From positions 51,150,001-51,214,000 of the forward strand of contig OX485804.1 of assembly GCA_950295325.1 (NCBI GenBank): 64,000 bases of DNA, given 5' to 3'. Source of the stretch: Polytrichum commune. Taxonomy: Eukaryota > Streptophyta > Polytrichopsida > Polytrichales > Polytrichaceae. The notes beneath the pieces were generated by a model. It did no database searches and had not been told where the DNA came from. It was given only the letters and a program-made list of their open reading frames with translations. The position numbers were made by a program, and so were the translations under genes. Below, piece after piece: positions 9,474 through 31,623 of the stretch. Position 1 is the stretch's first letter, and the number at the start of each line of letters is the position of its first letter.

Positions 9474-9479
9474 TTATTA

Positions 9480-11290
9480 GTGGGTGCAAACAGTAGACCT
9501 GCCCAAATGTACAGGTTCCCAAAACCTAAACAATGTTTGGCGTTGGCTGTCTTGGCCTTCTGTCTAAAAAAAAAACAAAAAAAAACAAAAACCATGTAAC
9601 ATTCTAATCAGGGTCATGGCAGGCGTGAGCACTATTAGAACGGCGGCCAGGGCTAGATGCTCTCCTCTTTGAGCTTGGGCCCAAAATAAGCCATGGCCTT
9701 AAAGAGGCAGGATACGCTTCTACATAAATTATTGGAAACTGGGTCCTTATAGCTTTGAAATATTTGGAAATATGGTAGCACCAAGGTATCCTGCCCTATT
9801 ATAGAGAACTACTGTATGCCGCCCTATTGTATTTAGTATCACTTACTCTTTGGAATTACGCAATGCTGTAACAATTTACTGTATATATCATGTTTGGACG
9901 TAACATGAATTAGTTATGAGATTTTGAAGTGTTATGTTAGGTTAATGTATGATGGACATAGTGACACCTCATATTAGATTTCAAGTATGCTCATTCATAG
10001 AGAATAACGGTTGCCATCGTTGTTCATGAGTCTTGGAACCAACACCTAGTGAGCCAATGACACAATAACTTGATTCTAAACACCCTCATCATCATGTGTC
10101 TTGAATCCGACACTCTAGCAACCAATAGGACAGAATAGGAAGAAATTTATCTTGTTCTTGAAATCATGCTTACCTTGTCATGTTTAGAGAGATTATGTTC
10201 TTGTGTTTGGTGCACTAAAATGGTCCTATTAGTGTGGGTGGAAAATTAGCTTGGAAATAATTAATGTGTTCCACAATTATTTCATAGTCAAGATGAAATT
10301 AACGTGAGTCTAAGACATTTGGGCCCTCCAATAAGTCTTCATGAAGACTTATGACCAACATATTGAATATAAATTATAGGACAAAAGTAGCATAAAATAA
10401 AATAATCATGCACATTAACTTTGTACTAGAATATAGCGTGGGTTGAAAATGAATGTGACCCACATTAATTCTTATTACGAGAATCACTATGGCTCTCAAT
10501 AATGTGACTATTTAGTGCACTTTCCTCCTCCCATGTAAGTACCTCTAGTGTCCCGGGAGATTTTTGAACACAATCGACTGAGATCCTAGTGTTTTCAAGT
10601 CCAACCATTTACATGTTGACATCTTTTGGCTTTTCTTTATGAATTTAGGTATGTCTCTAAATTCCTCTAAAATGATAATTTAGTAATTTTCTTGAACTCT
10701 TGATTTTCAGCTAATTGATTCTCAAACTCAACCGGTTACTCCCTAAGTAGCAGTTGGTTCTCCCCATTCATTGAGGGCCACTTCACACACGAGATTGCGA
10801 GCCCATGACCATTACACTTCAAGCACTCTCTGTGGTGGAACAAACGGAGCTGGTCCAAGTCCTTTCTTCACACTACGCTTGAGGGACCAACGGAGCATGG
10901 GAATGCAAGATGAATGTAAAGTCTACATGGATTCCTACATGGCATCAAAATGGATCATGTTTCATGGTCACTTGGATTATTTTCAAAAACCACCTCTTGA
11001 AGGTAGGCCTAACACATAACCGGGAGACCATGGCACTCCGAATGCTCACAACCATTGATTTATTCTATTCTATCATGTGTGAGGACCCACGTGAATAGAA
11101 ATAGCATTTGGTTGAGGGTCCCGTCACATATGATTTCACACTACACTTTAGGATCCGTGAGCACACTACATGATTTTGAAGGTGTATTAGGACAACCTTT
11201 GAACACTTTCTTTTGGGCTCTGACAATTTCATGGTCACGGCTCTTGGCTTGTGTGTGAAGTGGTCCCGAATGCTTCTAAATTTCCTTCAT
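9480..11290. other. Gene-free stretch of copy 1
   Basis: No supported gene is seen; the equivalent part of copy 2 is about 58,400-60,440. A poly-A/CAAAA run lies near 9,568-9,590. A 233-bp segment found only in copy 2 (58,821-59,053) is missing at 9,891. A segment near 10,560-10,790 resembles 38,290-38,850 upstream of the minus-strand two-exon gene. Confidence 0.5.
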
Positions 11291-11304
11291 GGGATGGGCT
11301 CCAC

Positions 11305-11570
11305 TGAACTCCAACGCCTCCCCTCCCTCATTGGTTCAGCACATTGGAAACTTTGAGAACCTTAGGATCCTATATTTTGGAATTTGACAGTCCCTCGAGC
11401 TCGACGGAAAAGGCATTCCCTCGGTAATAGGACAGCATTACCTTACCTTACTTAAAGAGGTCTGCGTTTCTTGTGCCGAAGAGTCTCAAGATCCGCTCGT
11501 CATTTCCAGCCCCAAGCGAGAGAAATTGCTCACCTTGGTCCTTGTCGTGGAATCGCAGGGATTGGTTTGA
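11305..11570 (+). pseudogene. Leucine-rich-repeat remnant, copy 1
   Basis: Broken frames give LRR-like phrases in order: ELQRLPSLIG, ENLRILYF, IPSVIGQ and LLTLVL. These are typical of the LRR region of plant NLR or LRR proteins. Stops and frame changes separate them. It lies just upstream of exon 1 of the two-exon family, so the family members may have arisen next to, or been fused to, an LRR gene. Part of the segment also recurs upstream of the 63.5-kb member. Confidence 0.45.
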
Positions 11571-11669
11571 TCTTCACCGACGTGAGGATTCCAAGTGCGG
11601 ATCACCTGTGGACTGAGTTCATTCTTGGAGGTTGCAGCAACTGATCAGATACGGATAATTCCAAGCAAA

Positions 11670-12604
11670 ATGGCCAGTAACTACATCTGTGAGTCGATTG
11701 CTCGTGGCGTTCACAAAACCATCCGGCAGGCAGCGAAGATACCTTACATGATGGAGGACGAAAAGACAGTGGCCACACAGGAAGGATCCTACTTCAACCG
11801 ACTCGAAGGAGTATTGGGTGAAGAGACATACAAGCAGGGTTGTCTATCCCGACGTCATGATGGTGTCATGCCGTCATGACGTGTCGTGACGGACCCCTCC
11901 ATCACGACACAATAGGGTCCACGTAGGGTCAACCTAGGGGGAAGCTAGTAGGGTGGGTAAAATACTTACCTTCTTGCCAAGGTGGCGTCCTATGTGGCAG
12001 AAAAGGCCGACGTGGACGTGGATATGCCTAGCGCCAGGTAAACCATTTTGCCACTCTGTCTATCATTCTGTTAAAATCAAAGTAGTAAAATATGACTAAG
12101 GAGGGTGTGGGGCGGACGGGGGCGGACGGGGGGGAACGGGGTTGGACGCGGGGGGGGGGGGGGGGGGGAACGGGGGGGAATGGGGACGGACGGGGGTTGG
12201 GAACGGGGGCGGGAACGGGGGCGGATGGGGGCTAGTAATTTTTTCCCCACTTTACCTCTACTTTGCTGACATGTCATCACACGTGGACATCTTACATCCT
12301 ACGTGTCCGAAATGGGGTAATGTAATTACACACAGAATTTGGTAAAATTCAAGTCCGTCAGGATAAAGACAACATCCGGCATAATGTCGTGACGGATACG
12401 TGTCGTGACGGCACGACATTATGCCGAGATTAGCCTCCGTCACGACACAATAGACAACCCTGCATACAAGGCACTGTGTGCAGACATGGCTGATGTTGTG
12501 TTGGAGACAATCTATTACTGTCAAACGGAACTCGTCAGTCTCGGTGACAATCTGTACGAATCGTGAAAAAAACAGAATCCTAATTTCGACCACAATGAGG
12601 AGGT
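11670..12604 (+). pseudogene. Two-exon family, broken member: exon 1 only, split by a transposon
   Basis: The ATG at 11,670 opens the same exon as the intact gene at 60,826 (MASNYICESIARG…). The frame is interrupted at 11,835-12,462 by a hAT-like insertion. After it the exon resumes (GCACTGTGTGCAGAC) but carries a TGA where the intact copy has CGA (near 12,562). The segmental duplication ends at the exon's donor site, so exon 2 is absent. It is non-functional by three independent lesions: insertion, stop and loss of exon 2. Confidence 0.85.
11835..12462. mobile_element. Non-autonomous hAT-like element, 628 bp
   Basis: Ends CAGGGTTGTCTAT and ATAGACAACCCTG are inverted, with an exact 8-bp duplication CATACAAG at 11,827-11,834 and 12,463-12,470. 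The segmental copy 2 shows the empty site (AATACAAG, 60,983-60,990). CAGGG-type tips and an 8-bp duplication are hallmarks of hAT elements. Subterminal GTCGTGACGG-like motifs recur on both strands near each end, as expected of transposase-binding repeats. The interior is a G-rich run (12,100-12,240). There is no transposase ORF. Confidence 0.9.
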
Positions 12605-13518: not shown

Positions 13519-13921
13519 TCAATGAGGTTGTGAGAGCCTCGTGTCTATACCAGCGAGTGAACCTTGGGATATTGCCTGAGAGATTACAAAGTCATGTAAA
13601 ATCTGGAACGGAAAGTGAAAATCTTGGCGATGGCTATGATAGCCACGACCATGATCCCTACAGCGAACATGACTCTCACGGCGACCATGACTCTCACTGT
13701 GTCTAGAGGAGATATAAGCGGCAGAAGACTTGTTTGAGTAGTATGCGTTGGTATCAGGAGATGCTTCTTCAGCTAGGCGTCGTTTGATCTTGGTTTCTTC
13801 CTTGAGTAAACGGAGTTGAAGATTCGCAAATGTACGTTCATCCAACGGAGTGCTATCCCAAGTAGTAATGAAAGAATCAAAGCCTTCAGGTAAATTGGTG
13901 GTGAGCTTGGAGATGAGCATG
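13519..13921 (-). pseudogene. Copia gag, C-terminal part (left of the 17.3-kb insertion)
   Basis: The minus-strand frame starts MLISKLTTNLPEGFDSF and continues through LDERTFANLQLRLLKEE, which is the plant copia gag (UBN2-type) signature, then an Arg/His/Ser-rich tail. The N-terminal part lies at 31,191-31,623. Across the insertion, FNND on one side is followed by MLIS on the other, in phase, once a 2-bp duplication (TG on the plus strand) is counted once. The nucleocapsid knuckle and pol that should follow are not readable, so the retroelement is truncated. Confidence 0.85.
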
Positions 13922-13950
13922 TAACACTATATTCGTTAAATTGAGACTTT
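13922..13950 (+). repeat. Left 29-bp terminal inverted repeat of the 17.3-kb element
   Basis: Begins TAACACTATATTCG and ends GAGACTTT. All 29 positions are identical to the reverse complement of 31,162-31,190. It abuts copia gag codons directly. Confidence 0.93.
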
Positions 13951-14040
13951 TTGGGCATTTTGAGACATTCACATAAATAAGAACAAGGATAAATGGAACA
14001 CATATTGGAGAAAGTTGTAAGATGCGAACACTTTGTGTCG

Positions 14041-14330
14041 GGTATTTAGAACAAGAACCCCATTAATAACTCATATTTGGGATTGTTTAGGATGAGCAAT
14101 CCAAACCTTAGGCCAAATTGAAGGGGAAATCTTAAAACATTCATATTATCGCACACAAAATATGAGATCTTGTATGAATATGTTTTAGGTAGGGCACTCC
14201 AAACCCTTAGACCATATTGAAGGGGAACTATGTGAACCAATATAATATAACATACAAAATATTCCAAACTCATATTTGTGATGGTTTAGTTAGGGCAATC
14301 CAAACCTTGGACCATATTGAAGGGGAAATC
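14041..14330 (+). repeat. Left subterminal tandem repeats with degenerate palindromes
   Basis: Three related units of about 100 bp each contain a degenerate palindrome (GTTTAGGATGAGCAATCCAAAC near 14,078 is written here as GTTTAGGATG, then AGCAATCCAAAC) followed by ATTGAAGGGGAA. The others lie near 14,184 (TTAGGTAGGGCACTCCAAAC) and 14,287. The phrase ATTAATAACTCATAT and its palindrome recur at about 23,690-23,740. Confidence 0.7.
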
Positions 14331-14551
14331 ATGTGACACTTATATTATTGCAAAAAAAACATACAAAGTATGGCATGTAAAATGCATAGCATGCTAACAC
14401 CACACATACATTGGATAGTGCGACCCAAAATGATGTTGCCTATGGCCCAAAACCCTATGCCTACTATGGCCTATCTAGCCTCGGAGATTGCCTCTTTTTC
14501 TTTTGCTTTTTTTTCTTTTGCCTTTTTTTCTTTTGCTGCGGCTTCTTTTGC

Positions 14552-15261
14552 TCACATTGCTTCAACATTCCTGAAAATCTCCGCCCCGCGACTATAGCCA
14601 TTCTTGGGGTGACCGCCATCCATAAGACATTTTGGAGTCCGTCGGCCGCCCGAAATATACGTCGAAGAATTCGAATACGATGAAGTGGATTGTCTCGCAT
14701 TTCTGGTCATGGCGTACATACGCTCGAACTCGATGGACGCACTAGACCGCATAGGTTTACGGGTGGGAGCAACCTGCAACGCGTCATTGCAAGACCACAT
14801 GTGTTAGTTTAGGGAGGAAGACCCAAACGTGTCACACGATCATTTTTTAAGTGCAAAATGATTGTAATGCGCGGTTAACCATGTTTTAGAGAGGGGGGGG
14901 GGTTCACCTTGTCACCGGGGGCGTTCCCATCGGAGTTGGCAAGGAGGGGCAAGGCGTCCCGCAAAGGAATAGGAAGGGTTCCACTCTTCGTTGGCCGTGC
15001 GTCCATCCGCAGCCGCCGTTGAGGTGTAATACTTCCGCCGGGCCGAGAGGGGGATGTCCGGACGCATTTGCGATTTATGCCCTTGAGCGGCGACGGGGAC
15101 GGAGATCGCCGTAAGATTTGCTTGGGTGGGGGGCTATCGACGACGCCGGCGTCAATAGGCTCCTTGGAGTAGTCAATGGTTGACGCGGCGTCGTAAACGG
15201 TCTCGTAGAAGAAGCTCCCCAACTCTGACTCGCTGACGATGTCAATCGAGGGCTCCAAACG
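14552..15261 (-). CDS. Basic protein of unknown function (two visible exons, 5' end uncertain)
   Basis: Two minus-strand exons are linked in phase 0. 15,261-14,908 follows an acceptor (TTGCGCCAG) and ends at AAG before GTGAAC; 14,773-14,552 follows TTGCAG and ends in a stop. The first visible exon has an acidic/serine start (SIDIVSESELGSFFYETVYD) and a Ser/Pro/Arg-rich stretch (ILRRSPSPSP). The second is Arg/Ser-rich (RKPMRSSASIEFERMYAM). A Lys/Glu/Ala-rich frame lies just beyond the stop. No domain is recognised. It lies in the 17.3-kb element, just downstream of the FCP-like gene and on the same strand, so it may be further exons of that gene or a separate accessory gene. An upstream start exon was not found. 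Confidence 0.45.
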
Positions 15262-15400
15262 CTGGCGCAAAAAAGGAAACGAAACAAAACCCAAAGGAAG
15301 AGGGTTTGCTAGAGCGCGTGAAAATCAAGATACATATGAAGCATATATTACACAAAGTGGGCGGGCGCATACACACACACACACACACACACGTGCTGCC

Positions 15401-16150
15401 TCAAATGAGCTTGTTAAATTTCGCGTGAGAGAACAACTCTCTGTACAAATGGTCTCGTGGATCCAAGTATCTCTCGCCTATCGGATTATTCCTAACAAAA
15501 TTGTTTACAGGTAGTCCGCTTCCCCTGAGCGCCTGGAGGTATTTACTAAGGTCTAACAAAAATCGGTCCCGGACCTTCTCGACCGTCCACGTAGGGCAAA
15601 CTATTAAGTTGGCCGTCGGGTTCAACATGTTCTTTGCGGCGCTGTCGTCCACCATGAGCGTGTTCTCCCGGGTGGGACGGACGTCGTAGGGGACACCTAT
15701 CAATGACGGACGCTGGTCCCAAAAAATGGGCTTCAAGACCTTGAGGTATTGGGGGGAAGCGGGGTTGTTTGGTTTTTTGACGACTTTGCCGTCCGGTGTG
15801 TACAATATTCTACAGGCTTCCTGTGCTAGGACCATGCAGGGGGGCTCGATGCCCTTGAAGATGAACTCCACGACTGCATTGGTGTTCTCGGCCTTCATGG
15901 AGCTCCACACGACCACCCACCATCGTTGTTGGGCGATCTGGAGGAAGGTCCGAAGCCACGGGCGGAGGTGAACTAGCTTGCTCTTTATGAACGTGGGCGG
16001 CCCGTCGTAATTCGCGTCCTCGGGCTTGCAAAAGGGCACCGTGGGGGTCCTCGGGCAATGAACGCATTGGACGAGGACCCCGTTGAGGTCTAACACCAGG
16101 AACCGGGTCTTAGGCGGCAAAGGTGGAACGGGTAAAATGGGGGGGACCAT
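15401..16150 (-). CDS. FCP/SCP-like HAD phosphatase domain protein
   Basis: This 249-residue open frame starts at ATG 16,150. After a proline-rich lead it has the HAD motif I region FLVLDLNGVLV (residues 17-27). The usual DxD is DxN here (D21, N23). W-S-S at 82-84 fits motif II, and MVDDSAAKN (166-174, D168-D169) fits the acidic motif IV. The spacing matches the FCP1 homology domain of C-terminal-domain/NLI phosphatases. Loss of the second Asp, the usual general acid, suggests altered or absent phosphatase activity, although DLNG variants are common among plant FCP-like proteins. Its place inside a large transposon, on the same strand as the DGQHS gene, suggests a captured or element-borne accessory gene. 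It could also be the 3' part of a longer transcript from that gene. Confidence 0.75.
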   Translation of the reverse strand: MVPPILPVPPLPPKTRFLVLDLNGVLVQCVHCPRTPTVPFCKPEDANYDGPPTFIKSKLVHLRPWLRTFLQIAQQRWWVVVWSSMKAENTNAVVEFIFKGIEPPCMVLAQEACRILYTPDGKVVKKPNNPASPQYLKVLKPIFWDQRPSLIGVPYDVRPTRENTLMVDDSAAKNMLNPTANLIVCPTWTVEKVRDRFLLDLSKYLQALRGSGLPVNNFVRNNPIGERYLDPRDHLYRELFSHAKFNKLI

Positions 16151-16673
16151 CGCGCTACCTTCCTCGCTTCTTGGAGAGGCCCGGCGGGGAGCCGCGACGC
16201 TATGCTCCGATCCCTATGGAGACGAGCGACATAAGGCGGGGGAAGACTATGTCATGCTATGTCCACTTAAAGTGAATACAATATTTTCTGTGAAAAATAC
16301 AAGAACCACTATGCATAGGCGGCCATACAAATGCAAGAGGGGGCAAGAGGAAAAAATATACATTTGAACACGAAAACAAACATAAGGGCACAAAATAATA
16401 ATTTTATTGTTTGCAATGCTCTATGTACAAAATGCCTAGGGGTGCGAAGCCGCGTTGAACGATCCGTTCAAACTATCCTAATTCAACATCTACAAAATTG
16501 TGTGCACGCCTCCAAGTTCGAGTAAAATCGTGGGACGGGCGACGTTAGTGATCGTCGGGGGGGGGGGGGGGGCTGAAGGGATGCGAGAGCGGATGGACGG
16601 GGTGGGGGCAGTTCCTCCTAGCTAGGGGGGACACGACCACGGCAACAAGACAATAGACCAGGAGTTTGGGTCG

Positions 16674-17082
16674 AGCGACCCAAACTGAGGAGGTCTCAGT
16701 GTATTACCTCTCCCTGGTCATGCATGGACGCCATGGAAGCCTCCACCGCCTCCGCTTGTCGTTCTCTCTCGCCACCGCCTTCTCCGACGATGTCAGCACC
16801 CCTCTCCTGCAAGCGCTCAGTGTCAGGACCTTCTCCTAACCCAACCTCCGCATGTGCATCATGCATAGGTTCATCGATTGGGATAGGAGTAGAGGTATCA
16901 CCAGGCCCTCGAGGTCCTTCAACATCAGGCATGGGTGTGTCTCTTTCAGACCCATGCTGGTCCATTGAAGACTGAGCGGTAACGGGGTCTGGGTCGGCCG
17001 ACCCAAACTCTCGTGCATCATGAGATTGGCCTTGTTGCACTGTAAGGGGGGGGGGGGCGGGTTTGGGTCGGACGACCCAAAC
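16674..17082. repeat. Three 22-bp palindromes at the 3' end of the DGQHS gene
   Basis: Copies lie at 16,674-16,695 (centre AG), 16,987-17,008 (diverged, GTCTGGGTCG left arm, inside the last coding part) and 17,061-17,082 (centre GA, one arm change). The first begins immediately after the last stop, and the third lies in the probable last intron, next to a poly-G run. Confidence 0.85.
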
Positions 17083-18308
17083 ATGTGGGGGTCGTCCTGC
17101 TGATGGGGCGGGGGGATCACCAGGGGCGGCCGAAGTGGTGGGGGGGTCACAAGTCTAGAAGACCCGGGAAGGCGCCATATATTGGGGTCATCCGCTTGTT
17201 GAACCGGCGGATACGGACGGACGTGGGGGGGAACCATGTGCTGAAAGTTGAAGGAGGATTGCGGCACGGGCTGCGGAGGAATGTTCTGGGGAGGGAAGCC
17301 GGGGGGCAAGTGTGGAAATGAGCCCGGGGGAGCCACCACCAAACCCTGCGCCCACATGCCTCGAATCACTTGCGTGATCAAGTCCGCACTAGTTGGAGGT
17401 TGCGCCAATGCCCGCAGTCGCTCTTGCTCCAATAAGAGAGCCCTTAGCTCTGCCACTTCGTTCCGCACTGAGGGTTCTTCAGCAGTGGCCTTTTGCAAGC
17501 GGACGCGTTGTTCTTCGTCCCTTAACATCTTCTCGTTGGCTTCTTGCACGGTGAGGACTTCCGGCTTCACCTTCACCATCCCTGCGAAGGCACCTGGAGA
17601 GGGAGGGTCCGACCTGAGCCGTTTCGCGAGCTCCATGTCGTCCTCGTCTTCGCTGCTAATGGCAATTGTCTCCTCGATGGCATAGTCGCCATAGAGTTTC
17701 TTGCCTTTTAGTTTCCTCCTCTCCCTGAACGCGGCAGTCGCATCCCTGGAGTACATGTCGCGGGCATCATCAACCGTCAGGACGGGCACCAACTTACTTT
17801 GTGGAGTTGCTACCCGCATTGCCTTCTTTCGTTGAGGGGCTTCAGATTCCTGAGTGAAACCTGTTCCCCCTTCTTCGACCTCGCCCTCCACTTTAGCCTC
17901 TTCTTCCTCCTCTTCCACCTCCTCATCCTCCTCCTCCTCCCCCTCCTCGTCACGCGGTCGCCGAGAGGATGTGCCTGGATGCACTTGGACCAGAGGCTCT
18001 GGTACAGCAACTGGAACCCTTATGGCCAACTCTTCAGGGTTGACACGCCTCGCCTTATCCAGCGGGCTCTCACCCCCTTCAACAGTCTCCTCGGCGTAGC
18101 TCCCAGGGATCCAGTCTAGTATATCTATCTTCTTCGAGTTAGATTTTTGGGCCTTGTAGAATTGGATGTCATTAAGGTCTACATAGCTGTACACGTTCAG
18201 CCCCAGCATCTGCAGAAATCCCACCAGATGTTATTATATGGCATAACATGTGATTCCACCGAAAAGGGGAAGTACATACAAGACCTAATATCAATTGCAA
18301 AGGTTATA

Positions 18309-18402
18309 GTTTGGGTCGAGCGACCCAAACTAGCATCAGTGTTAGTTTGGGTCGAGCGACCCAAACTAGCATCGGTGTTAGTTTGGGTCGCTCGACCCAA
18401 AC
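18309..18402. repeat. Three 22-bp palindromes in an intron of the DGQHS gene
   Basis: Positions 18,309-18,330 (AG), 18,345-18,366 (AG) and 18,381-18,402 (CT), spaced exactly 36 bp with linker TAGCATC-G-GTTA. They fill the centre of the intron between exon 2 (ends 18,432) and exon 3 (starts 18,209). Confidence 0.95.
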
Positions 18403-19871
18403 TATGAAAACAATTATGGTAAGGAGCTTACCATGCCAGCGAAGACGGGCTTGGTGCCGCCGAAGACGTTGAATATACAGTCCCCTCTTCTCGTCAAGGC
18501 CCTCATTATTCGGAGATAGAATTCCATCCGCAACTCATCCGAATGGTATATGGCATATTTTGCCTCGTCGTAGAGGGACTTACTTGTGCCCAGGCCTTCT
18601 GGAACTTGGAATAGTTTTTGCATCCGGGTTATGGGGTGGTTCTCCACCTTCAGCAAGGTTTCTTTGAACACAAAGTACAAGCACAACAAATTCATGACTT
18701 TGGTTTTCTTGTCCTTTAGTGTCGTGTACACCCCCTCCGCCGGTGCAGCAATGTAGTGAGACTTAGACACCGCATACTCAGGCTGCAATTTCCTCACAAT
18801 TTCATACACCTGCTCTGCTCTCCTATCCTCTACTATCCACAGCCACATATCGACCTCCCTAAGCTTAGGGCTTGCATACTCCACGAACTTCGACATGAAG
18901 GGCTCGTAGAAGGGTGTACCCATTGTGCCCTCAAACGTACTCCCAGGAATGCTCCGGAAGTCTATTATACCAAAGGGGAACCGGTCCGCTGCTCTTACTC
19001 GTATTTCTTTCCTGGAATCAAGGCCGGGCCATCCCTGGATTTTAATAGGGTCAAAAGCGACAAGGTTGAAATGCGCATCCCCCTCAAAACTTACAATCTT
19101 CTTCTCCTTTATAAAGTTTGAGAAGGCACGCGTCGAGTGTTCTGGAAGAGCCAGGTTCTTCCCACCCTTCACCAGTTTTGACTTTAGGAAGTCTTCTCCT
19201 GCCTCCCTGATCAGAGCTGCCATGGATGCACTGGTGAAGTTGTATTCAGCCTTGAACGCTCTCCAGTTCACCTCGTTCACCTCGTCATCGACAAAAATGT
19301 TCTTTTATGGGATTAGCTTCTGCAGCTCCTGGACGATCGTTGTTTTCTTCTTCCTATTCTCCGCCCATTCCTTCATTGTGTAGCATGGAGGAACAAAGGA
19401 TTTCGGCTTGGTGAAGACTATTTTGGGGTACACCCAAAATCTCTTAGGGGTCGGGTTGTTGTGCAAGATGTGCGTTGCCGCCTTCCCCATTTCCGCCTCC
19501 GAAAGACCCTGCAGACTTCTAAAGAATTCTCTCATGAGAGGCTTCATCACCTTGAATCGAGAGGACGAGTTGAAGAGGTTGCATGTGTCAGGATCCATGA
19601 GATCCCCTGTCTCGTGTTTCTCAAACACTGTCTTCCACTTCTGCCAAACCATGTCGGATGATGTAATCAAGTAGATCTCTCCTCTTAGCTCATTGTACTT
19701 CTTTTGCTTGTGACTTGAATTGTCAATTGAGGAGAACTTGTTTATCATTTGGTATTTGAAAAGCTGCACAAGAGCATAGAATGCGTGTTAATTCTCAATA
19801 TGTTGTTTCCAAACAAAGAAGAAAAATGATGAACAACAAACTGTGTAGACAAACACAAACTAAAACACAAG

Positions 19872-20053
19872 GTTTGGGTCGAGCGACCCAAACTGTATGA
19901 AGAAACACAAGGTTTGGGTCGAGCGACCCAAACTGTATGAAGAAACACAAGGTTTGGGTCGAACGACCCAAACTGTATGAAGAAACCCAAAGTTTGGGTC
20001 GAGCGACCCAAACTGTATGAAGAAACACAAAGTTTGGGTCGAGCGACCCAAAC
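19872..20053. repeat. Five 22-bp palindromes in a strict 40-bp tandem array (intron 1)
   Basis: Starts at 19,872, 19,912, 19,952, 19,992 and 20,032, with centres AG, AG, AA, AG, AG. The linker is TGTATGAAGAAACACAAG-like. The array lies wholly within the intron 20,076-19,764. The exact period implies tandem amplification of a palindrome-plus-linker unit. Confidence 0.95.
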
Positions 20054-21429
20054 TCTGTTTGAGAAACAATGCTCACCTCCCACTTTGGATTCTTGTCTTT
20101 TGCATTCTCCCTTTCCTTGGGAGGCCGGCCGTAGAACTCCCACACATCCCGCGATGCCATGATGTTCCTAATCCAAGAAGCTTGATATGCCCGCTTCCTG
20201 TTATTCATGTTGAAATAGCGGGAGATATCGCTCAGCCGGGTTTCGTCGTCCGACCACACGTCCAATGCCTTCCATACCTTCAATTTTTCCTTTAGACCAT
20301 TAGGATCATTCCACTCCGTCATCAGTTGAAGTTTCTTTGAAGCTTCAACACTGTGCTGACCGTCAATCAGCCAAAAATCGCCTTTCTCTATAGAAGGCCA
20401 CATATCCGGTGTAGGCATTCTTTTGTGTCCCTGAGGCATGACAACAATAGTCTGGCTATCATGTTTAAACTGGTCGCTCACCATCTGGGCGATTAACCAA
20501 TCAACATACGCATCTTCCTTTGCCCGAACGCACTTCTCTGGTGGCGCTAGGTGGCATTGTGCGATGTTGACATCAAACTTGAATTCTCTGCCCATGAAAA
20601 AATAATGTAAACACTTGGTGTCGAAATTGTTGAGTATTTTCTGGATCTCCGATGGCTCCACTCCTTCCCCGGGCTTGGGCATACGTAGCTCCGGTGAAAC
20701 AGGCTCATCTGTCATGGCATATACTGACTCTCTCGGCCTCTTAGATGGTGTCGTCTGCCGGCTTTGTGATGGCGTCGGTGTTTCACTATCAGCAGGAGTT
20801 GCCGTAGGTGTTGTTCTCCTCGAGTCAGCTGGAACCGGTCGGGGCTTCCTCATTGTTTGAGGTCTTGACGACCCTGCGCCCTCTTCAGCAGTCGCCTTGC
20901 GCCTCACAGCTTGTTGAGATTTTGACTTGCTTTGCTGGGTCTTGTTTATTGCGTTGATTGCCTGCTTAAGTTTAGTGAACCTGGTTGCAACCTTCGTGTT
21001 TGAAATGATCGCATCTATGAAGATTGTATCCGGTTTAACAATGTCTGGCTCAGCGCAGGATTCCTTCACGTATACCGGATCGAATGGCTCGGCTTGCTCA
21101 TTCATGAACATGTGCACATTTTCCAGAGAAGAGTTTTCCAGGATGACGTCAACGTGCTCTCCTAGAGCATGAACTGATGCCACCTCCCATCCCGTCAAAG
21201 CATCCCATGTGTGTTGCTCCTCCGTGCCAACCTTCAAAACAAGGAGGATTTTGAATTGAGCTGCCTTTACTACAAGAAAGGACCATGCAATTACAATGTC
21301 TTCTTTTGCTACGTAGGATTGGTTTTTAGGAGTTTCGTGCTCCTGCCAGATCGCGTCTGGTGCCGGCTTGAACCATCGTTCTCCAGGTCTTTTCTTGGGG
21401 GGCATCTGCAAGTAGAAATACATATGTTA

Positions 21430-22180
21430 GTTTCGGTCGGGCGACCCAAACTCTTTCAAATCATATAGGCTTATGTCTGGGTTTAGTAACATTTATATAT
21501 GGGGTTACTTTTCACAGGTTTGGGTCGAACGACCCAAACCTGTGCCTACAATGGCTAATGAATAATATATTATTTGGCTACGAAAACCAATCTTTAAGTT
21601 CATGGATACAACAATCATCACGAGCTACTGTTCTAGTTGTGGGTCATTTCATTATTGCTTGGGTGTTTGAGTTGTTGTTTATAAGTGTAAGTATTGTTCG
21701 TAAGCAGTAAAAATTTACGCAGAGTTTGGGTCGTTCGACCCAAACTTTGTAGCGGTATGGAATGATCGGCTATGGCCTTAGATCATACCCAAGATGATGA
21801 TTACCTAAATTATGAATTACCATTTCATGCGCTGTTTGGGTCGAACGACCCAAACTCTGCAGATGGATTGGGTCGAGCGACCCAAAGCATGTGCTAGTTT
21901 GGGTCGAGCAACCCAAACTCTGCAGATGGATTGGGTCGATAGGGTTAGATATTCACCCAAGATGATGATTAAATTAATTATAAATGAACATTTGATGCGG
22001 AGTTTGGCTAAACCCTAGACCCAAACAATGCTTATGGTTTGGGTCGAGCGACCCAAACTCTGCAGATGAATTGGCGCCCACGACCCAAACCATCTTTAGA
22101 GTTTGGGTCGCTCTACCCAAACCAGTTGCAGAGTTTAGTGTTTTAGGGTTTCAAACTGAAGTTTGGGTCGTCTCTCGAAA
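21430..22180. repeat. Cluster of about nine palindromes upstream of the DGQHS gene
   Basis: Full or near-full copies lie at 21,430, 21,518, 21,724, 21,834, 21,868 (shortened), 21,897, 22,037 and 22,101, with half-copies near 21,933, 22,080 and 22,161. The one at 21,518 extends to a perfect palindrome of 15-bp arms (21,513-21,544). Centres AA, TT, AG and CT all occur. It covers the putative promoter/5'-UTR of the minus-strand gene. Confidence 0.9.
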
Positions 22181-23689
22181 CACTTTTGATTCCAGAGACC
22201 TTTATAATGTGTTTACGCAGCATATACAATGCTTATGCATTGTAGATGCTGCGAAACTCTAAAGAAATTGACACACATAAAGAAGTTGAAGAAATCACCT
22301 TGCTTTGCAAACTACACAACAAGCTGCTGTTGGAAGCAGTTCTAACAAGCTAGTCTTGGAAGCTGATTCTAGAAAGGATTGGATATCAGAAAACTAAGAA
22401 CGCCTCACAAACATTCACTCTGAATTGAAGAAGCTTTCACAAACATTCACTCAGAATTAAACAATCCCTCACAAACATTCACTCTGAATGTAACAAGTGT
22501 TTACAAACATGAACAAAAAAGCTATCTGAAGGCCACACATGCACACTGATTTTCGAACAATCATTCTAATTCCGAAATCACTCTACACTCACACATGAAT
22601 GTTTCTAAGACCAGGAGGAACTGACACAACCACCTTGAAACAACACTCACACTCCAAAACAACAAAGACGTTCTGAAATGGCTAAAATGTATAGACTTTA
22701 ATACAAAAACAAACCCTAAACTCATACTACACTCAGAACAAAAGAAGAGGAGGAGTGAAAGAGAGAATGAGATAATGATGAAGAGGGAAGGAGAGAGGGA
22801 ATGCGAGTTCGACAAGGAGAGAGAGAATGCAAGGGAGGAGGCGGCGCTTTCAAGAGCGGCGGCGCCTCCAGAAAGTATGAGGAACGTACAAAGGAGGAGG
22901 AGCTTGGAGCGGAGGAGAGAGAAGGAGAAAGTGCGGAGGGGAGAGTGAAAGGGGGAAGGTCACTCAAGGGCGGGACCCATTCGGGCCGGCGCCTTTCGTG
23001 TCCGTTCGGCTCATGGCCGCCAAGTGTCACGGGGCGCTCCATGGCCCAAACGAATACACAATCTGAGCCATTGGAGAGCCCCAGGCCCATCGACGGTCGA
23101 TAGGCCTCGCAGGTGGGTATCCTTTAGCCACCTATCCCATACCATCCTTGAGGATACTAAAAAACCTTTATAGCCTAAGGTTTTTAATTTAATGGTCCCC
23201 CGATGGATTTGCTAATATCAAATAATGAAACTGTATTGGTTTTGTAATTTTAGTAATCTACACATATGCATGAATCGAGAATGATAGATACTAGACTAAG
23301 AGGAGTATTTAATAATTATATTGCAATCCTCGTAGGCAATTACATAATGGAATAATATAACTATGGTAACCATTTACACAATGAATGGTTTCGAGTTATA
23401 TATTGTAATTATCTATGAAGGTTGTTGGTAAAGGACAATGCTATAGCCTACGATGGATCCGTTAACACATACCATTGAACTAAATCTAATTATACAAGTT
23501 TATGTAGTGTCATTCATTATAATATGGAATTATGCAATATTAAGTGTTGACAACTTAATATCATTGTTGTTTGTGAAAAGCAACAAAGATGTTGTTTGAT
23601 TTATAGCATGATGGAACATTAACATACTTATTTACAAGTTTACATATTTATGAGATACAAATATATTGAAGCGGGTGTTTTTGCTGAAG

Positions 23690-23813
23690 AACCCAATTAA
23701 GAACTCATATGAAGATGGTTTAGGTAGGACGACCCAAACATTAGACAATGTTGTTGTTGTTCATATATTTAGTTGAGACAAGATAAAGTCTACAAATATT
23801 GAATATAGTGATA
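23690..23813. repeat. Internal degenerate subterminal repeat and terminus
   Basis: 23,693-23,740 repeats the left subterminal phrase, with palindrome variant GGTTTAGGTAGGACGACCCA. 23,785-23,813 matches the right terminus at about 21 of 29 positions (AAAGTCT … GAATATAGTG). This suggests that the element is a composite of two related units or contains a nested, decayed relative. Confidence 0.5.
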
Positions 23814-24002
23814 GTAAATGAGAGAAGCACCATGTATACAAATATGAAGCTATCAAATACTAATATGTGGAGTTCAACATTATATGAAGCCATTTAAGCA
23901 ATCACTTTGTTGTTGGATGATCCCTCCACATATATTAAACAACATATCTTATTAGGAAATGAGGCACAAATTACAGTAGATGGTGTTCTATATGGAAGCT
24001 AC

Positions 24003-24550
24003 ACGGGTAGGTCACTCTAAGGCATTTTTGTGCACCACGTGCGGCTCAGGGTTTTTTGTTTTGGGGCTATTTACCTTCAAGGGTTGAATTAAAGCCTCCC
24101 TATAATTACTTGAATTTCAAAAATGGCCCATTTGTTTGCACCCTTCCATTACTTATATTGTCCAAGTCACTGCAATTTTTTGTACTCTATATTCCTTTTA
24201 AGTAATAAAAGCTAATCTACTTCCTGTTAAGGGAAACCATGGAAACAAAGAAGGGTGCAAACAATAATATCATTGCAAACAAAGTTATGAAGAAAACACA
24301 TAGGAGACCATAGCAAACATTATACTAAACATACCTTCTAGGAACCTTATCTTCAGCCCCTATATTAATTTTACAAAAAAATAATGGCCCACATTTTATG
24401 TCCATCTAACTTACTTATAATGGGATTGTCTACATTTAATGGCCCCTTCATTATTTGGAATTCCTTTATAATTTTTATTTCAAATGATTTCAATCCTCTC
24501 TATATTATGCCGCACGTCGTTTTTAAAATGCACTAAGTGACCTACCCGTG
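24003..24550. mobile_element. Second copy of the MULE-MITE family, inverted, 548 bp
   Basis: Both ends match 6,438-7,236 in reverse orientation (left ACGGGTAGGTCACTC, right end CTACCCGTG). It is flanked by its own 9-bp duplication, GGAAGCTAC (23,994-24,002) and GGAAGCAAC (24,551-24,559). It lacks an internal stretch that the 799-bp copy has. It is nested in the 17.3-kb element, so it inserted after that element's central region was assembled. Confidence 0.85.
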
Positions 24551-24574
24551 GGAAGCAACCCTGAACAACTACGA

Positions 24575-24620
24575 GGGTGTAGGGTGTAGGGTGTAGGGTT
24601 TAGGGTTTAGGGTTTAGGGT
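24575..24620 (+). repeat. Interstitial plant telomere-type repeats
   Basis: Three GTGTAGGG-type units are followed by three TTTAGGG units, 15 bp to the right of the MULE-MITE's target duplication. TTTAGGG is the canonical land-plant telomere unit. Such short runs occur at repaired double-strand breaks. Confidence 0.75.
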
Positions 24621-25729
24621 ATATAAATGTGTCTTGTTGCACTCGAAGCCATAAATGAATGGCGCATAGGTCAAATGAGGGGGCCAAGTCGCTTGTGGTT
24701 CTAAAAACAAATGTATATAGATATCACAATAGTCTAATTCATGAACATGAACGTTGGTTACATTTCATGTTATGTTTGTTATGTATGTTATGTTACGTCG
24801 TAGATGCGTTCATATCTAGTGTATAAATCTCTAAATATTTTATTTAGTGTAGTGACACTAGAACACACCAACATGTATTTAAGGACATGTTCTGCTCAAC
24901 TTGCATTGAATAGATACAACTATATATGTTTAGATTTTTCATCAAACATTTGTTAAAACAAATAAAGTTGACTACATTTTTTTTGGCAAGCCAAATCAAT
25001 AAAAACTATAGGTACAAAACACAACTACAATAAGTATGATATTTAGTGTTTGATACACTAAATACAAGTGAATACACAATATATCAATAACCATATGAAA
25101 GTAATAAACATTAAATATAAGCTATAGTAATATGTGGCATTGACATGTTTGAATTTAGTGTTAGTAAGGATGTGAAAAGAAGAAATATACGTGAGAGTAG
25201 AAGGTAGCAACACATTTACTTCTAACACTAACTGTCATAGGATTGAAAATTAATGTTGAGCATGTAAGGGTGGTAACCATAGTCCGCCAAGAGCCTAAGG
25301 CTAGTGTAAATGCAGCCTACAAAATTTGTGACTTAGCCTATAAAATTTTGAAAGTGTAGGACAAAGAGCCTATGGACAATTTTAAAACATAGGATATCAA
25401 CCTATGTGGTAAAAAACATGTAGGAAATTTTGCCTACAAAGTTTTTAAAAGAGCGGATTTTAGCCATTCATCCTTCTTCAAATTGGGAAATTAGTTGGCC
25501 TAAGTACATATCTTTAGGCTAATACTCGGGGCTCTTGAGTGGCACATAGGCGGATATCAATAATAGCCCTGACTCCCTCCCCGTCGATCTTTACAAATAC
25601 CACAGCCCAAGCCCCATCACCGCATAGAGGTTGAATCAGAAGATGGTGAGGACTTTCACCCTTAAACTCATTTGAATTTTAGCAACCTTTCATAACTTAT
25701 AATCAACTCTTTAAAAAGGAGTTGGTTAA

Positions 25730-25784
25730 TCCTTGGCCTTCAAACGTGGTGAAGGGCTTAGCCAGGTTCAATTCCTGCCAAGGA
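25730..25784 (+). other. tRNA-like fold without D-arm, or SINE head
   Basis: TCCTTGG (25,730) pairs with CCAAGGA (25,778-25,784). A CCTTC/GAAGG stem and a T-arm-like CAGG-TTCAATT-CCTG lie between. GGTTCAATTCC fits the pol III B-box consensus, and TGGCCTTCAAACGTGG is a possible A-box. At 55 nt it is too short for a normal cytosolic tRNA. A tRNA-derived SINE or a chance fold are both possible. Confidence 0.3.
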
Positions 25785-26492
25785 TACCACTTAGTACTCA
25801 AATTTTGAATTTAAAGCCTACAACATTAAAAGATATGAAGGATTTTAACCTACTAAAAATTAGTTTTAAAGGCAATTGGCAGGTAACTTAAAAACTCAAA
25901 AGGTTTTCAACTTACAAAAATTTGATATTGTAGGATGCAACCTATGCCATGAGGGAAATAGCCTATGCCCTTTTAAAGAGGTAGGCAATTAACCTCAATA
26001 ACTTCAAAAACTTTTCGGACACTGGTGGTAACAACACTACATATAATCAAATCCACACATCATATTTTGTGTAGTTATTTAATAGCGGAATTAGGAGGTT
26101 AGTTGTCCAAGGTCATTTGATGGTTGGCGCCACGAAGAGGCAAGCTAAATATGGATGCTCTATTACCAACAAGAAGCGGGAAATTCTGTCAGAAGGTTTG
26201 AACTTAGGTTTAGGGTTTACGTTCGGGCGGGAAAGGGATCCAAAGAGGAAGGCCAAGGCGGAGGCGGGTAGTATAAAGTACCAAACCCCCCAAACTTTGC
26301 TCCTTTTTTCTCATCTCTCCATTCTGAAATGGTTGCAAGCTCTCTCAAGTAGTGGTGGAGTGCAAGGTTCGTGTATGCATCCGTTGATGAGTAGCTAATT
26401 ACAACAGCCATGCACGGCCTGAATTCTTCCAATTAGTATCCACGTAGCTGAATATGGAAGATTACCGCAATTTAAGGCGGAATTTGCGGAAT

Positions 26493-27400
26493 GTTTGGGT
26501 CGCTCGACCCAAACCCACCCCCATAGTGAGGTTTGGGTCGAGCGACCCAAACCCACCCCCATAGTGAGGTTTGGGTCGAGCGACCCAAACCCACCCCTAT
26601 CACGGGCTGGGCCTGGATTAGCAAGCCCATCCTGTCACGAGGTTTGGGTCGCTCGACCCAAACCCACCCCCTCTCACGGGCTGGGCCTGGATTAGCAGGC
26701 CCATCCTGTAACGAGGTTTGAGTCGCTCGACCCAAACACACCTCCATTGTGAGGTTTGGGTCGAGCGACCCAAACCCACCCCTGTCACAGGTTGGGCCTG
26801 GATTAGCAGGCCCATCCTGTCACGAGGTTTGGGTCGCTCGACCCAAACCCACCTCCATTATGAGGTTTGGGTCGAGCGACCCAAACCCACCGCTATCACG
26901 CGCTGGGCCTGGATTGCCAGGCCCATCCTGTCATGAGGTTTGGGTCGCACGACCCAAACACACCTCCATTGTGAGGTTTGGGGCGAGCGACCCAAACCCA
27001 CCCCTGTCAGGGGTTGGGCCTGGATTAGCAGGCCCATCCTGTCACGAGGTTTGGGTCGAGCGACCCAAACCCACCCCTATCAAGGGCTGGGTCTGGATTA
27101 CCAGGCCCATCCTGTCACGAGGTTTGGGTCGAGCGACCCAAACCCACCCCTATCAAGGGCTGGGTCTGGATTACCATGCCCATCCTGTCACGAGGTTTGG
27201 GTCGAGCGACCCAAACCCACCCCTATCAAGGGCTGGGTCTGGATTACCAGGCCCATCCTGTCACGAGGTTTGGGTCGCTCGACCCAAACACACCTCCATT
27301 GTGAGGTTTGGGTCGAGCGACCCAAACCCACCCCTGTCATAGGTTGGGCCTGGATTAGCAGGCCCATCCTATCACGAGGTTTGGGTTGCTCGACCCAAAC
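26493..27400. repeat. Palindrome satellite upstream of the transposase gene (about 16 copies)
   Basis: Palindromes start near 26,493, 26,531, 26,569, 26,642, 26,716, 26,754, 26,828, 26,863, 26,938, 26,974, 27,049, 27,123, 27,197, 27,270, 27,305 and 27,379. Two linker types alternate: a short one (CCACCCCCATAGTGAG-like) giving 35-38-bp spacing, and a long one containing GGGCTGGGCCTGGATTAGCA and GGCCCATCCTGTCACGAG giving 73-75-bp spacing. The central dinucleotide flips between AG and CT, so individual units have orientation. The long open frames here are repeat translations, not genes. Confidence 0.95.
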
Positions 27401-27570
27401 CCACCCTCATGCACACAATGGGGATGTGCATAGATGGATCCTGAATAAACTGTTGTGCGCTCCATTTTTTGGAACCCATCGATATAATATTCATACAACA
27501 TTTGTTATGATAAGGTTTCTGTGTTTTTCTATTGGACCCTATAGCTTTTGTCAATTCTTTACAAGGTTCC

Positions 27571-30500
27571 ATGTTCATGTGTGTAGGCAAAATGGATGGG
27601 TATACTGGAAGAGGGTATTCGTCTGGAGAAGACATGGCCACTTGGCCATCTGCATCTGAGGAAGAGCTAGACATTGTCGGGGAGGCTACTATGGATGAGA
27701 GTTCAGATGAAGAGCATTTCGATATACCTTCGCGTTCCGTACCGGACTGTCCCATTCCAGAGTGTGCCGTGCTTTCAAGAGCTTCATGGGTGAATTTGGA
27801 TGTATTACTTCTTAATGACAATGGGGTTGTTGTGGCGGAGGGTATCTGTCGTAACACCCATCCACAAGATTGCATTGATCAAAATCCGCTTGGCACCGAG
27901 GACGTTGGGATTGTCATATTGGAGTCACTCGTTCCTTCTGAGGTGGATCCCACTCATAGGTTCTCCCTCCGCAGGTGGCCATTGAGGAATGTCACGACTG
28001 ATGGAGTTAGCTTGCGTGAACATGAGCAACGACACATGCAACTCGAAAAGGAAATGCAATCAAACATGCGGCCACGCAAGGGTCAAAGAAAGTACGATAC
28101 TGTGGCACGTCCTTCTCCATCTGCAACTGATTGTAAACGTCAAAGGCTGCTTGGGGAGGAGTCCATAAGAGAAGTTGCCACAAAGGATTGTTGTGTGCAT
28201 TGTTGTTGCCAATTGTTTCCAAGGGATAAATTGAAGGCCATCCGTGAAGAAATGTGGCTTGGAGATTTTCGTCTAAGATCCACAAAAAAACTTGATGTCC
28301 ATAGGGCAATACATGTGAATGGGACGGGTCGCAAGGTAATCACCATTGAAAGCATAGACGTGTGTTGTAAGGCATGGTACACCATTTACGGTGTGTCGAA
28401 GGCGGACTTCTATAGACAAGCTGCTTATGCCAAGGAAGGCCGCCGGTCCCGTCACCATGGGAACGTGGATTTAAAGAAACCTAGGGAAGCAACAAGGCAA
28501 GCAACGGCAACTCTAGCAACCATCATTGTCCCCCTTGCTGATGCAATGCCGCACAAAACACGCACACTCACAACCGGTGAAAAGGTTGTGGAGAAAGTTC
28601 TTCCCACAAGCACAAAATGGAAAGACATATTGTTGGACGTTAATGCAGTTGGCGAGAAGATTGGGTTGGAGCCAATTTCATTGTCAAAATTAAGTGCAAT
28701 CAAGAAACAAAACTTTAGCGAATACATTACAAAAAGACGAGGGGACAAATTTGCCAGGTGCTCTAATTGCGAGAAGTTGAAGCGCCTCCAGAATGCACAC
28801 ACGATGGGTACCGAGTCATATGCAGCGCATCAATTGAACTATTTCAAGCACGTAAACATGCAAGAGGCACACCGTAATGATTACTACACAAATAGAGCTT
28901 TGTCCATCTCCAGGCCCTTGGAGGTTCTTACGGTCATCCATGACAAAATGGACCATGCCAAAACAGCCTCCCCATGTTTTGCAAATCGAATCAAGGCCAC
29001 GGATGGGTTTTTTAAGTTGCCTGTATCGGTTACAGGTGAACTTCGAAACAATGTCATGACATACCCTAAATGTTGTGGTTTTTTATTCCGTGATGTACTG
29101 GAGAACATGGATTCCTTCATAATGGTTTATTCATACATAGATGCTAATCACGTTGGGTTGGCATTGCAGGAATGATTGCACATGGACACGGTGATGTCAA
29201 GTTTGCTCATTATGCTCTTGATTTGTATCCAGCGGATTCAAACCACACGATAGGATCATTTGCAAGGCTTTTACGTGATTTAGAGAAACCACCAGCCTAT
29301 TCTTCAGGATTGTTATTTGAGAACGCGGGTTCAACACCTTTATATGAAGCGGTGCTGGATGGAAAAGATGTATGCTTGCATTCGTTGCCCGAGCCACCCA
29401 ATGAACCCGTGATTGCCAAGAAGTTGCCTCCAACTTTGCGTGTCCAATTGGACAATTGTGCCAAGGACAATAAAAGCAGATATGTATTTGCATATTGGTC
29501 GTTGTTGGTTGCAAAAGGCATTTTCAAGGAGGTTTTTGTGTCCTTCCTATTGGTAGGCCACACGCACGATGATATTGATGCATCTTTTGGGCGGTGGAGC
29601 ATGAAGTTGCGGGAGGAGGATTTTCCTACAATCCCATTATTGATGAAGTCGTACATGGATTTGGAGAACGTTCCCGTCATCCCCCATATGATTGAGAAGG
29701 TGCCAGACTTCAAGGCATTTATGAAACCTTATATTCGAAGTAGAGCTCACCGATTGATCGGGCATACGAAGGCACAACAATTCCGGTTCTACATGCGTGA
29801 CGATGGTGTCCCGGCCATGCAATACAAGTTGTTGTGCACGACACAAGACTGGAGCCCGCCGGAGGGTCTTCTTGTGTGGCGCGTGGATGCGGATGGGAAG
29901 ACCATGTTACCGGATGGGGAGCCTAGCCCTTGTAAGCCAATAGCCATGAAGAATTTGGAGGATATTTTGAAAGATATATCAGGCTTCATACAATATTGGG
30001 AGAGTTTGAAGATAGCGGATGTTGGCGGATCATGTTGGCATCGTTATGGGAGTTGGATACATTATTGGACACGTGTTCGTGCCGCCTTGGTAGACCTCCA
30101 CCAAGATAGCCCTCATACTTTGAGGCATGGATTTTGGCCACAAACACGAGTCGATGTACAAGCTTCAGAGGCTAGTCTTTTGGGAAATGGAGAGGTTCGA
30201 GAGGAGTTTGATGTGGACGACCATTACGTGGGGCCTGCTAGTAGTCGTCCGCCACCATCTTTCCGCATTGCAGTGGATTGTCATGAAGGATATATGCTCA
30301 TTTTGCGTCCTGGAGACGAGACATATGTGAAGCCAGTGTGGGTGGCAAGAGCTTTGTCCAAACCCAATTTTGTAACTTCCAGCCCTCATTTTCGACAAAT
30401 ACAAGTGGAGTACTACCGACCGACGGCAAGGAATGAAGATGTGATTCGGCATTATACAGGCTGGGATACAAACCCTAACTTTCAGTGGAAGGTGGATTCT

Positions 30501-30656
30501 GAGCACGGTCCATCTTGGGTAGATACAGATTCCATATTCATAGCATGGAAACCACGGAAAAATCATAGTGGATCAGTGTCCATCCCTCAAAAGTACATAA
30601 CTTTTGCAAAAGACAACCTTGCTCGGATCACAGAAGAAGCAACCCACGTTGAATGA
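27571..30656 (+). CDS. Candidate transposase, DUF7869-like, 997 aa, one intron
   Basis: The frame runs from ATG 27,571 (alternative 27,592) to 29,077, then a 92-nt intron (GT at 29,078, AG at 29,169), and resumes in frame to 30,656. The donor is inferred from phase. N-terminal half: an acidic lead, a Cys cluster (CCVHCCC near residue 206), WYTIYGVSKADFYR and CSNCEKLKRL near residue 397. C-terminal half: IHDKMDHAK (D458/D461), MIAHGHGD after the splice, QLDNCAKDNKSRYVFAYW (D597) and GHTHDDIDASF (D636/D637/D639). This is the motif order of DUF7869 proteins, and the three acidic sites look like an RNase H-fold D-D-D/E core. It lies directly downstream of the palindrome satellite and is the only intact large ORF of the element. 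The transposase role is inference. Confidence 0.7.
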
Positions 30657-30975
30657 GAAGTTGGTAGGATTGTGTTAGCATGATTATAGTGTAAACAGTA
30701 ATTCTACGAACATATATTACTCATATGTGTGCTCTTCAAAATTGGGGCAGAGTTTGGGTAGAACTTACGAATACTATATTGTTTTGGAGTTGGATGAATA
30801 TCCATTTACTATATTTCAATACAAATGTGAAGTTCATTTTTTTATTAAGTTTGGGACTAAATTGTCCATTGAAAAAATATGCATTTATTACATGCACTTT
30901 GTATGTTGCAATGTCTATATTCTATGGAGCATGCTAATAATAGAAATCATTATATATATATTTTTGGGTGAAACT

Positions 30976-31060
30976 TGTTTGGAGTGCTCTACCCAATGTG
31001 TTTTTGTTGATGAAATTGGTGTTGAGTGCTCTACCATATGTGCTTATGTCCGCACATCAT
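30976..31060 (-). repeat. Right subterminal motifs mirrored to the left end
   Basis: TTTGGAGTGCTCTACCC (about 30,979) and GTTGAGTGCTCTACCAT (about 31,021) are reverse complements, with changes, of the left-end motif GGTAGGGCACTCCAAA (14,187). Mirrored subterminal repeats are typical of transposase-binding arrays. Confidence 0.6.
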
Positions 31061-31161
31061 AGGTGTGGGATATTAGAACATTTAATATATTTGAGATTGT
31101 TGACAATATAGTTTCAGGCATCTTCATGTTGTTTGATCCATATATTAATTTGAGACTAGAG

Positions 31162-31190
31162 AAAGTCTCAATTTAACGAATATAGTGTTA
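31162..31190 (-). repeat. Right 29-bp terminal inverted repeat of the 17.3-kb element
   Basis: Ends CGAATATAGTGTTA on the plus strand, followed at once by TG and copia gag sequence. It is a perfect inverted match to 13,922-13,950. Confidence 0.93.
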
Positions 31191-31623
31191 TGTCGTTATT
31201 GAAGGTAGTGTCACCAATCTCGGCAAGCTCACTGAGAATCAACTGGAGCTGTCAAATGTACTCCGAGATAGATTGTTGAGGCTATAGCTTAGCATTGAAG
31301 AAATGCCGTTGAAGCTCATGGACATCCTCACCGGACTTGTGTTCATAGATGGATAAAAATGTATTCCAAATTTCGGTAGAAGTAGGACAATGTAGTAAAG
31401 GAGTCAAGATACGACGCTCAACCAAATTACAGAGGAGAGTGAATGCAGAATATTCACGAGCCTGTCATTTTTTTTTATCTGCGGCTTCAGCAAGGGTTTC
31501 AGTGCCATTGACAATGGTAAGGATCTGCTTGTATTGAAGCAAGGACCTCATTTGCCACTTCCAAATGTGGAACTCATCGCCATTGAAGCGTGCGATACCG
31601 CTGAGTTCTTTGTCTAGCGACAT
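31191..31623 (-). pseudogene. Copia gag, N-terminal part (right of the 17.3-kb insertion)
   Basis: Minus-strand start at 31,623 (MSLDKELSGIARFNGDEFHI), then KWQMRSLLQYKQI, and after a TGA and further lesions QLQLILSELAEIGDTTFNND just before the transposon. This is the standard copia gag opening followed by the UBN2 region. Stops show that the retroelement was decaying, but the insertion junction itself is clean. It is preceded on the minus strand by an LTR-like block at 31,916-32,190. Confidence 0.85.

Follow-up and report, generated by a model that had tools for sequence, protein, structure and literature searches.

A 22-bp palindrome in the promoters and introns of a giant moss transposon as a candidate recognition site of the element's own ParB-methyltransferase-like protein

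We analyzed a 64,000-nucleotide stretch of the genome of the moss Polytrichum commune (the window; contig OX485804.1, positions 51,150,001 to 51,214,000), which holds a giant DNA transposon of 17,267 bp at 13923..31189. Dozens of copies of a 22-bp palindrome lie in promoters and introns of this element, beside a gene (the DGQHS gene) whose predicted product is ParB-like and methyltransferase-like, which makes them probable docking sites of that protein. Proteins of the ParB family bind palindromes in bacteria. We lean towards the reading that the palindromes are cis-acting recognition sites, parS-like in form, of the transposon's own DGQHS product. This reading draws on the sites themselves, their clustering and avoidance of exons, the intervals that they share with sibling elements, their presence in the introns of relatives, their arm variants and the predicted protein folds, from which we infer binding and its consequences.

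The palindrome has the general form GTTTGGGTCG-NN-CGACCCAAAC and occurs as GTTTGGGTCGATCGACCCAAAC and GTTTGGGTCGAGCGACCCAAAC, with GTTTCGGGCGATCGCCCGAAAC as a putative arm variant. Allowing up to 3 mismatches, we counted 36 copies between 16664 and 27400 of the window, 27 of them with perfect arms, against 0.00 expected from 100 dinucleotide shuffles. A previous interpretation made from the DNA letters (the sequence-only reading) had estimated about 36 copies, and the count bears this out; the first copy lies ten bases ahead of 16674, where that reading had begun the range. Elsewhere in the window, outside the transposon, there was no palindrome at up to 3 mismatches, and the best match agreed at 13 of 20 arm bases. 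The centres are mostly AG or CT, which are one site seen on two strands; AA/TT, GA, CA, GC and GG also occur. Searches of viral and genome contig collections with the palindrome, and of viral contigs with three arm variants, gave no matches. A separate foldback-like element at 49005-49215 of the window contains a 41-bp tandem array with a unit that is palindromic too (ATTTAGGTTGAGTCGACCTAAAT) and resembles the main palindrome with transitions.

The 36 copies group into eight clusters. Three lie between exon 3 of the DGQHS gene and a NIF gene (16664..17082; this interval has 3 copies in all four full-length elements described below), three in intron 2 of the DGQHS gene (18309..18402; intron at about 18210-18431), five in intron 1 (19872..20053; intron at about 19764-20076) and eight just upstream of its start codon (21430..22122), where a 5' intron that ends at the ATG probably contains them. 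A single imperfect copy stands at 23718..23739, and a tandem array upstream of the transposase gene (26493..27405) holds the other 16. None of the 36 falls within mapped coding sequence (6562 of 17267 bp), a total from which exon 3 of the DGQHS gene was excluded; two copies overlap the uncertain 3' part of its frame. Identity between clusters is 0.967 in the arms and 0.300 in the 20-nt flanks, where the random level is 0.292, which upholds the earlier claim of conserved arms and variable linkers and indicates that the palindromes are not simply fragments of one duplicated segment. Tandem duplication has visibly multiplied copies locally: two clusters repeat at 36 and 40 bp, and the big array at 73-111 bp.

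We counted exact copies across the genome (407.8 Mb in 64 contigs) and found 9,231, while a reversed control pattern gave 0. The sequence-only reading had confined the palindrome to the 17.3-kb element; this is right for the window and wrong for the genome. Locations are known for the first 100 of the 9,231 copies; these come from the first 2.2 Mb of a single contig and are not a random sample. All 100 lie in six repeat clusters and none elsewhere, and three additional 10-kb background stretches were free of palindromes. Three full-length sibling elements of 18.1, 18.6 and 17.0 kb hold 77 of the 100. Their terminal inverted repeats (TIRs) are those of the window element, perfect in two siblings and with 3 mismatches at one end of the second; their 4-bp target-site duplications (TSDs) are AAGT, CCTT and ATAA, and their gene order is the same.

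The window element and its three siblings carry 36, 40, 26 and 36 palindromes at up to 3 mismatches, in the same intervals, including 16 to 36 intact ones per full-length element. Promoters and introns of all four carry them, and 0 of the 138 copies fall in coding matches, despite these covering 36-39% of each element. When the window element is compared with one sibling (E1), the surroundings of DGQHS intron 1 align and the intron itself gives no blastn match longer than 80 bp, and palindromes are present there in both. The sites thus persist while their linkers turn over.

The DGQHS gene lies inside the transposon on the strand opposite to the transposase gene in 4 of 4 full-length elements. 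Its exon borders follow from a splice-site reading of the sequence. Exon 1 (20077..21405, minus strand; 39 homologues) encodes an N-terminal PH-like domain and a ParB/Srx-like domain with the DGQHS motif, as judged from predicted structure: an AlphaFold2 (AF2) model of the homologue P0003 gave Foldseek and VIA matches to Noc, ParB and KorB. Exon 2 (18432..19763, minus strand) encodes a helical part followed by an N6/N4-methyltransferase-like fold, for which the model was compared by VIA only. Exon 3 (16836..18209, minus strand) was placed from reading frames and has an uncertain 3' end; its first 73 amino acids are kept in the three siblings at 63-67%. We presume from the motif pattern that it extends the methyltransferase-like fold; Pfam gave no match to it, and a Pfam scan of the spliced methyltransferase end found no family. 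The product would therefore pair a predicted ParB/Srx-like fold with a methyltransferase-like fold.

Other searches were negative. Profile and sequence searches of solved structures gave no meaningful match, Pfam models of ParB or the helix-turn-helix (HTH) did not match the relative P0006 at E up to 1, and relatives sought in viral and genome contig collections gave no matches. Canonical ParB has a CTP-binding motif, an HTH domain and a partner ParA; the nucleotide motif was not identified in the protein, and no ParA was seen. Methyltransferases of this kind are expected to carry characteristic catalytic motifs; a DPPY-like motif of that sort was not seen by eye in the exon-2 alignment (A4). 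The expected catalytic residues appear to be absent, and we therefore think that DNA binding or dimer formation is a likelier task of the methyltransferase part than catalysis. The window's own copy of the gene is probably inactive, because an in-frame stop at 19305-19307 in exon 2 replaces a Glu of P0006.

We propose that a dimer of the DGQHS protein would read both arms, which lie 12 bp, or about one helical turn, apart. All three genes have palindrome clusters in their promoters, and the DGQHS gene has them in its introns as well; through them the protein would mark the element and its siblings. One purpose could be control of their expression or their chromatin state, in the manner of VANC proteins at VANDAL elements; another could be to assist transposition, the part played by TNPA in CACTA elements.

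Relatives from other assemblies offer a view of the palindrome beyond this genome. Protein searches yielded 39 relatives for exon 1, 49 for exon 2 and 239 for the transposase; alignments cover 32 of the 39 exon-1 proteins (A3), 36 of the 49 exon-2 proteins (A4) and 24 of the 120 listed transposase relatives (A5), and trees cover 31 of 39 and 34 of 49. The predicted proteins of DGQHS relatives often overrun a splice site, and the intron read-through then spells the palindrome in three frames (VWVxRPK, FGSxDPN, LGRxTQT). With patterns and cuts between conserved and read-through parts that were defined after the tails had been inspected, palindrome peptides occur 56 times in 2425 amino acids of read-through versus 0 times in 36838 amino acids of conserved parts. 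The 120 listed transposase relatives gave 0 in 65362 amino acids. Read-through of at least 8 amino acids is present in 61 of 88 proteins, and 40 of the 61 contain a palindrome peptide. The palindromes of relatives often closely follow 5' splice sites.

By our own count, an AT centre, which would make the palindrome perfect, is possible in 32 of the 57 palindrome peptides listed. The sequence-only reading had seen in the asymmetric centre a resemblance to sites of recombinases or dimeric DNA-binding proteins, and had offered binding, cleavage or silencing as roles. A recombinase or cleavage reading is not supported: with so many centres compatible with a perfect palindrome, a recombinase is not needed, and each full-length element keeps 16 to 36 intact sites while its ends lie elsewhere.

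The arm variants partly follow protein clades, as far as the peptides reveal them. Peptides of the GTTTCGGGCG type mark out a clade supported at 100/100 in both trees, apart from a single ISVDRPK row in the first and an unscored row in the second, and P0179 has GTTTGGGCCG-type peptides in read-through at both sides of exon 2. Other variants do not follow clades: P0018 (VWA) pairs with P0008 (VWV), and P0170 has both VSV and VWV. In the frames that show both arms, left and right states agree beyond chance (p 0.014 and 0.038, uncorrected for relatedness); the first value comes from a Fisher table, and four transposase rows and a row that begins with M are left out of the two-arm table.

The genome itself speaks against such agreement of the arms. 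Among 191 sites there were 98 one-arm and 7 two-arm changes, only 1 of them complementary, and the genome contains no copy of the two-arm variant GTTTCGGTCG. Codon data are no substitute for DNA in such a test, and, with two-arm compensation not seen in this genome, the claim of compensation rests only on the peptides of relatives. The broader proposal of the sequence-only reading, that these are sites for an element-encoded protein, stands at the level at which we infer it here, given the promoters and introns of four elements, the variants that partly follow clades and the adjoining gene with a predicted ParB fold.

The remaining 23 of the first 100 listed palindromes lie in three loci (X1-X3) of another repeat type. 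We read this type as a transposon resembling Mutator-like elements (MULE-like), a label based on its reading frames and on a sub-cut-off SWIM match (E 0.076). Scatter independent of the giant element, which the sequence-only reading had named as contrary evidence, is thus found in part, in that the palindrome also occurs in this type; none of the 100 lies outside repeats. A palindrome array is situated upstream of a motif FFIWDGNHRF (1.8 kb in X1, 0.9 kb in X2), and downstream of the motif a segment matches N6_N4_Mtase with an E of 8.4e-4, below the Pfam cut-off; the segment scanned was that of X2, joined by eye across two frames. X3 has one listed palindrome and neither motif within the 20 kb covered. 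The exon-1 profile of the DGQHS gene did not match the X-type gene. We regard a second, distant ParB-methyltransferase-like gene linked to the main palindrome in the X type as a lead, not proof. X1 and X2 also carry a further perfect 22-bp palindrome, CCCTGTGCGT-TA-ACGCACAGGG, and X1 additionally GGTGTCTCGG-TA-CCGAGACACC; these are possibly sites of other proteins.

A bolder form of the proposal, which we consider possible and rather doubtful, is that the transposon has a ParB-parS-like system of self-labelling. A ParB-fold protein would load at the palindromes, spread or bridge, and so mark the element as self, and the module of palindrome and ParB-methyltransferase-like gene would be shared between two transposon superfamilies.

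We weighed four other explanations. The palindromes may be transposition sites of the subterminal type to which the DUF7869 transposase, or some other product of the element, binds, with the DGQHS protein unrelated to them. Binding of repeats by a TNPA-type protein is a known pattern (PMC2613891), and the region near the element's left end has an excess of degenerate copies (14085..14828, with copies at 14085, 14183, 14284, 14409 and 14807), where 5 match at 14 or more of 20 bases against 0.15 expected. The right end is weaker, with 1 copy at that level against 0.10 expected and 4 at 13/20 against 0.55. However, the intact palindromes occupy introns and promoters in the interior, well away from the ends, and the same palindrome occurs in the MULE-like X type, which has a different transposase. 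We find this explanation unlikely.

If the sites instead serve a host factor, be it a transcription factor, an insulator or a silencing protein, and were collected by the elements to drive or shield their own genes, this would account for a single palindrome in two repeat types of the genome that seem unrelated. Against this, the first 100 listed copies, out of 9,231, all lie in what reads as transposable elements, and some arm variants track the clade of the element's own protein, which leaves a host factor quite improbable. That the palindrome acts at the RNA level, forming hairpins close to splice sites that influence splicing or give rise to small RNAs, is very unlikely: palindromes do often lie close behind 5' splice sites in relatives, and both mapped internal DGQHS introns contain them, but many stand in arrays upstream of genes, no Rfam family matched, and the half-changed sites are, by eye, mostly not G-U wobbles. 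That the palindrome has no function, and is a selfish repeat or a side effect of tandem duplication and gene conversion, suits the arrays in which duplication has multiplied sites at periods of 36, 40 and 73-111 bp, but we give it little credence beside arms that stay at 0.967 between clusters with random flanks, and palindromes whose positions are restricted to matching intervals across four elements and, in relatives, to introns.

The transposon that carries the candidate sites is bounded by perfect 28-bp TIRs, AACACTATATTCG... on the left (13923..13950, plus strand) and its counterpart on the right (31162..31189, minus strand), and by the TSD ATGT (13919..13922 and 31190-31193). Joining its flanks yields an open reading frame of Copia gag, which means that the element sits inside a retrotransposon; no empty insertion site was found within the window. 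The transposase gene occupies two overlapping frames at 27514..30656 on the plus strand and matches DUF7869 (PF25273, E 6.8e-43). Its relatives listed with an organism name come from the mosses Ceratodon purpureus and Physcomitrium patens, and DUF7869 relatives sought in viral contigs gave no matches. The third gene, for a NIF/FCP1-type phosphatase (15401..16213, minus strand; PF03031, E 1.4e-15), is present in all four full-length elements, with 77-97% identity in the siblings. Elements of the Sola1 superfamily have 4-bp TSDs, and those of the four elements here (ATGT, AAGT, CCTT, ATAA) match that length. Membership in CACTA was rejected, since CACTA elements have 3-bp TSDs and ends starting CACTA (PMC2613891), whereas here the TSD is 4 bp and the ends read AACACTA.

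Three other repeats were observed. One at 6438-7238 of the window recurs inverted inside the transposon at 24001-24550 (92-97%), where it is probably a nested insertion. Direct repeats at 1-11834 and 49720-60990, about 49 kb apart, share 96-98% identity in three aligned blocks. At 44652-47508, a DDE_Tnp_4 transposase frame lies next to a frame with a sub-cut-off Myb/SANT-like match, a Harbinger-type pair.

The DGQHS gene fits a class of ParB-methyltransferase accessory proteins described in giant algal transposons, such as Sola1-1_Ec32 of Ectocarpus, where they are proposed to bind and modify their own element (Genome Biology 2025, PMC12477816). As there, a giant DNA transposon carries a ParB-like and methyltransferase-like gene opposite in strand to the transposase. 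In contrast to the account of Sola1-1_Ec32 in the available text, candidate target sites are found here, the host is a moss and the methyltransferase part looks catalytically changed; the transposase here is assigned by its DUF7869 match. Fusions of ParB folds to N6_N4 methyltransferases, more frequent in phages, appear in a recent survey (PNAS 2025, PMC12704722).

In their anatomy, the sites come closest to those of VANC and VANDAL21 in Arabidopsis, an anti-silencing system of the kind in which the protein binds the motif and removes DNA methylation. There, too, dense motif arrays occupy noncoding regions of the element, as tandem repeats that lie ahead of the transposase gene and within VANC21 and VANB21 introns; from family to family the motif changes together with the VANC protein, and anti-silencing has been shown (PMC5735166). 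The VANDAL motif is 9 bases long and in one orientation, unlike the 22-bp palindrome (PMC5735166), and the motif here is not confined to one family, with 23 of the first 100 copies in the X type. TNPA and CACTA (En/Spm) offer a similar picture of many short repeats that diverge between families and an element-encoded DNA-binding protein, but those repeats lie at the ends, and the ends and TSD length differ (PMC2613891). With bacterial ParB/Noc and parS/NBS, the system shares a predicted ParB/Srx fold and clustered palindromic sites; it differs in belonging to a eukaryotic transposon, with the HTH domain and canonical nucleotide motif not identified and no ParA seen.

In a literature search that left subscription papers mostly outside its scope, we found no report of palindromic target sites for ParB-methyltransferase transposon proteins. 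The proposed self-binding now has a candidate target, a 22-bp palindrome with 9,231 copies in one genome and variant arms in relatives, which makes the proposal directly testable. If the reading is true, ParB-type DNA recognition would have been reused in plants for transposon self-recognition. It would be an independent solution to the problem solved by VANC in Arabidopsis, possibly common to two kinds of transposon.

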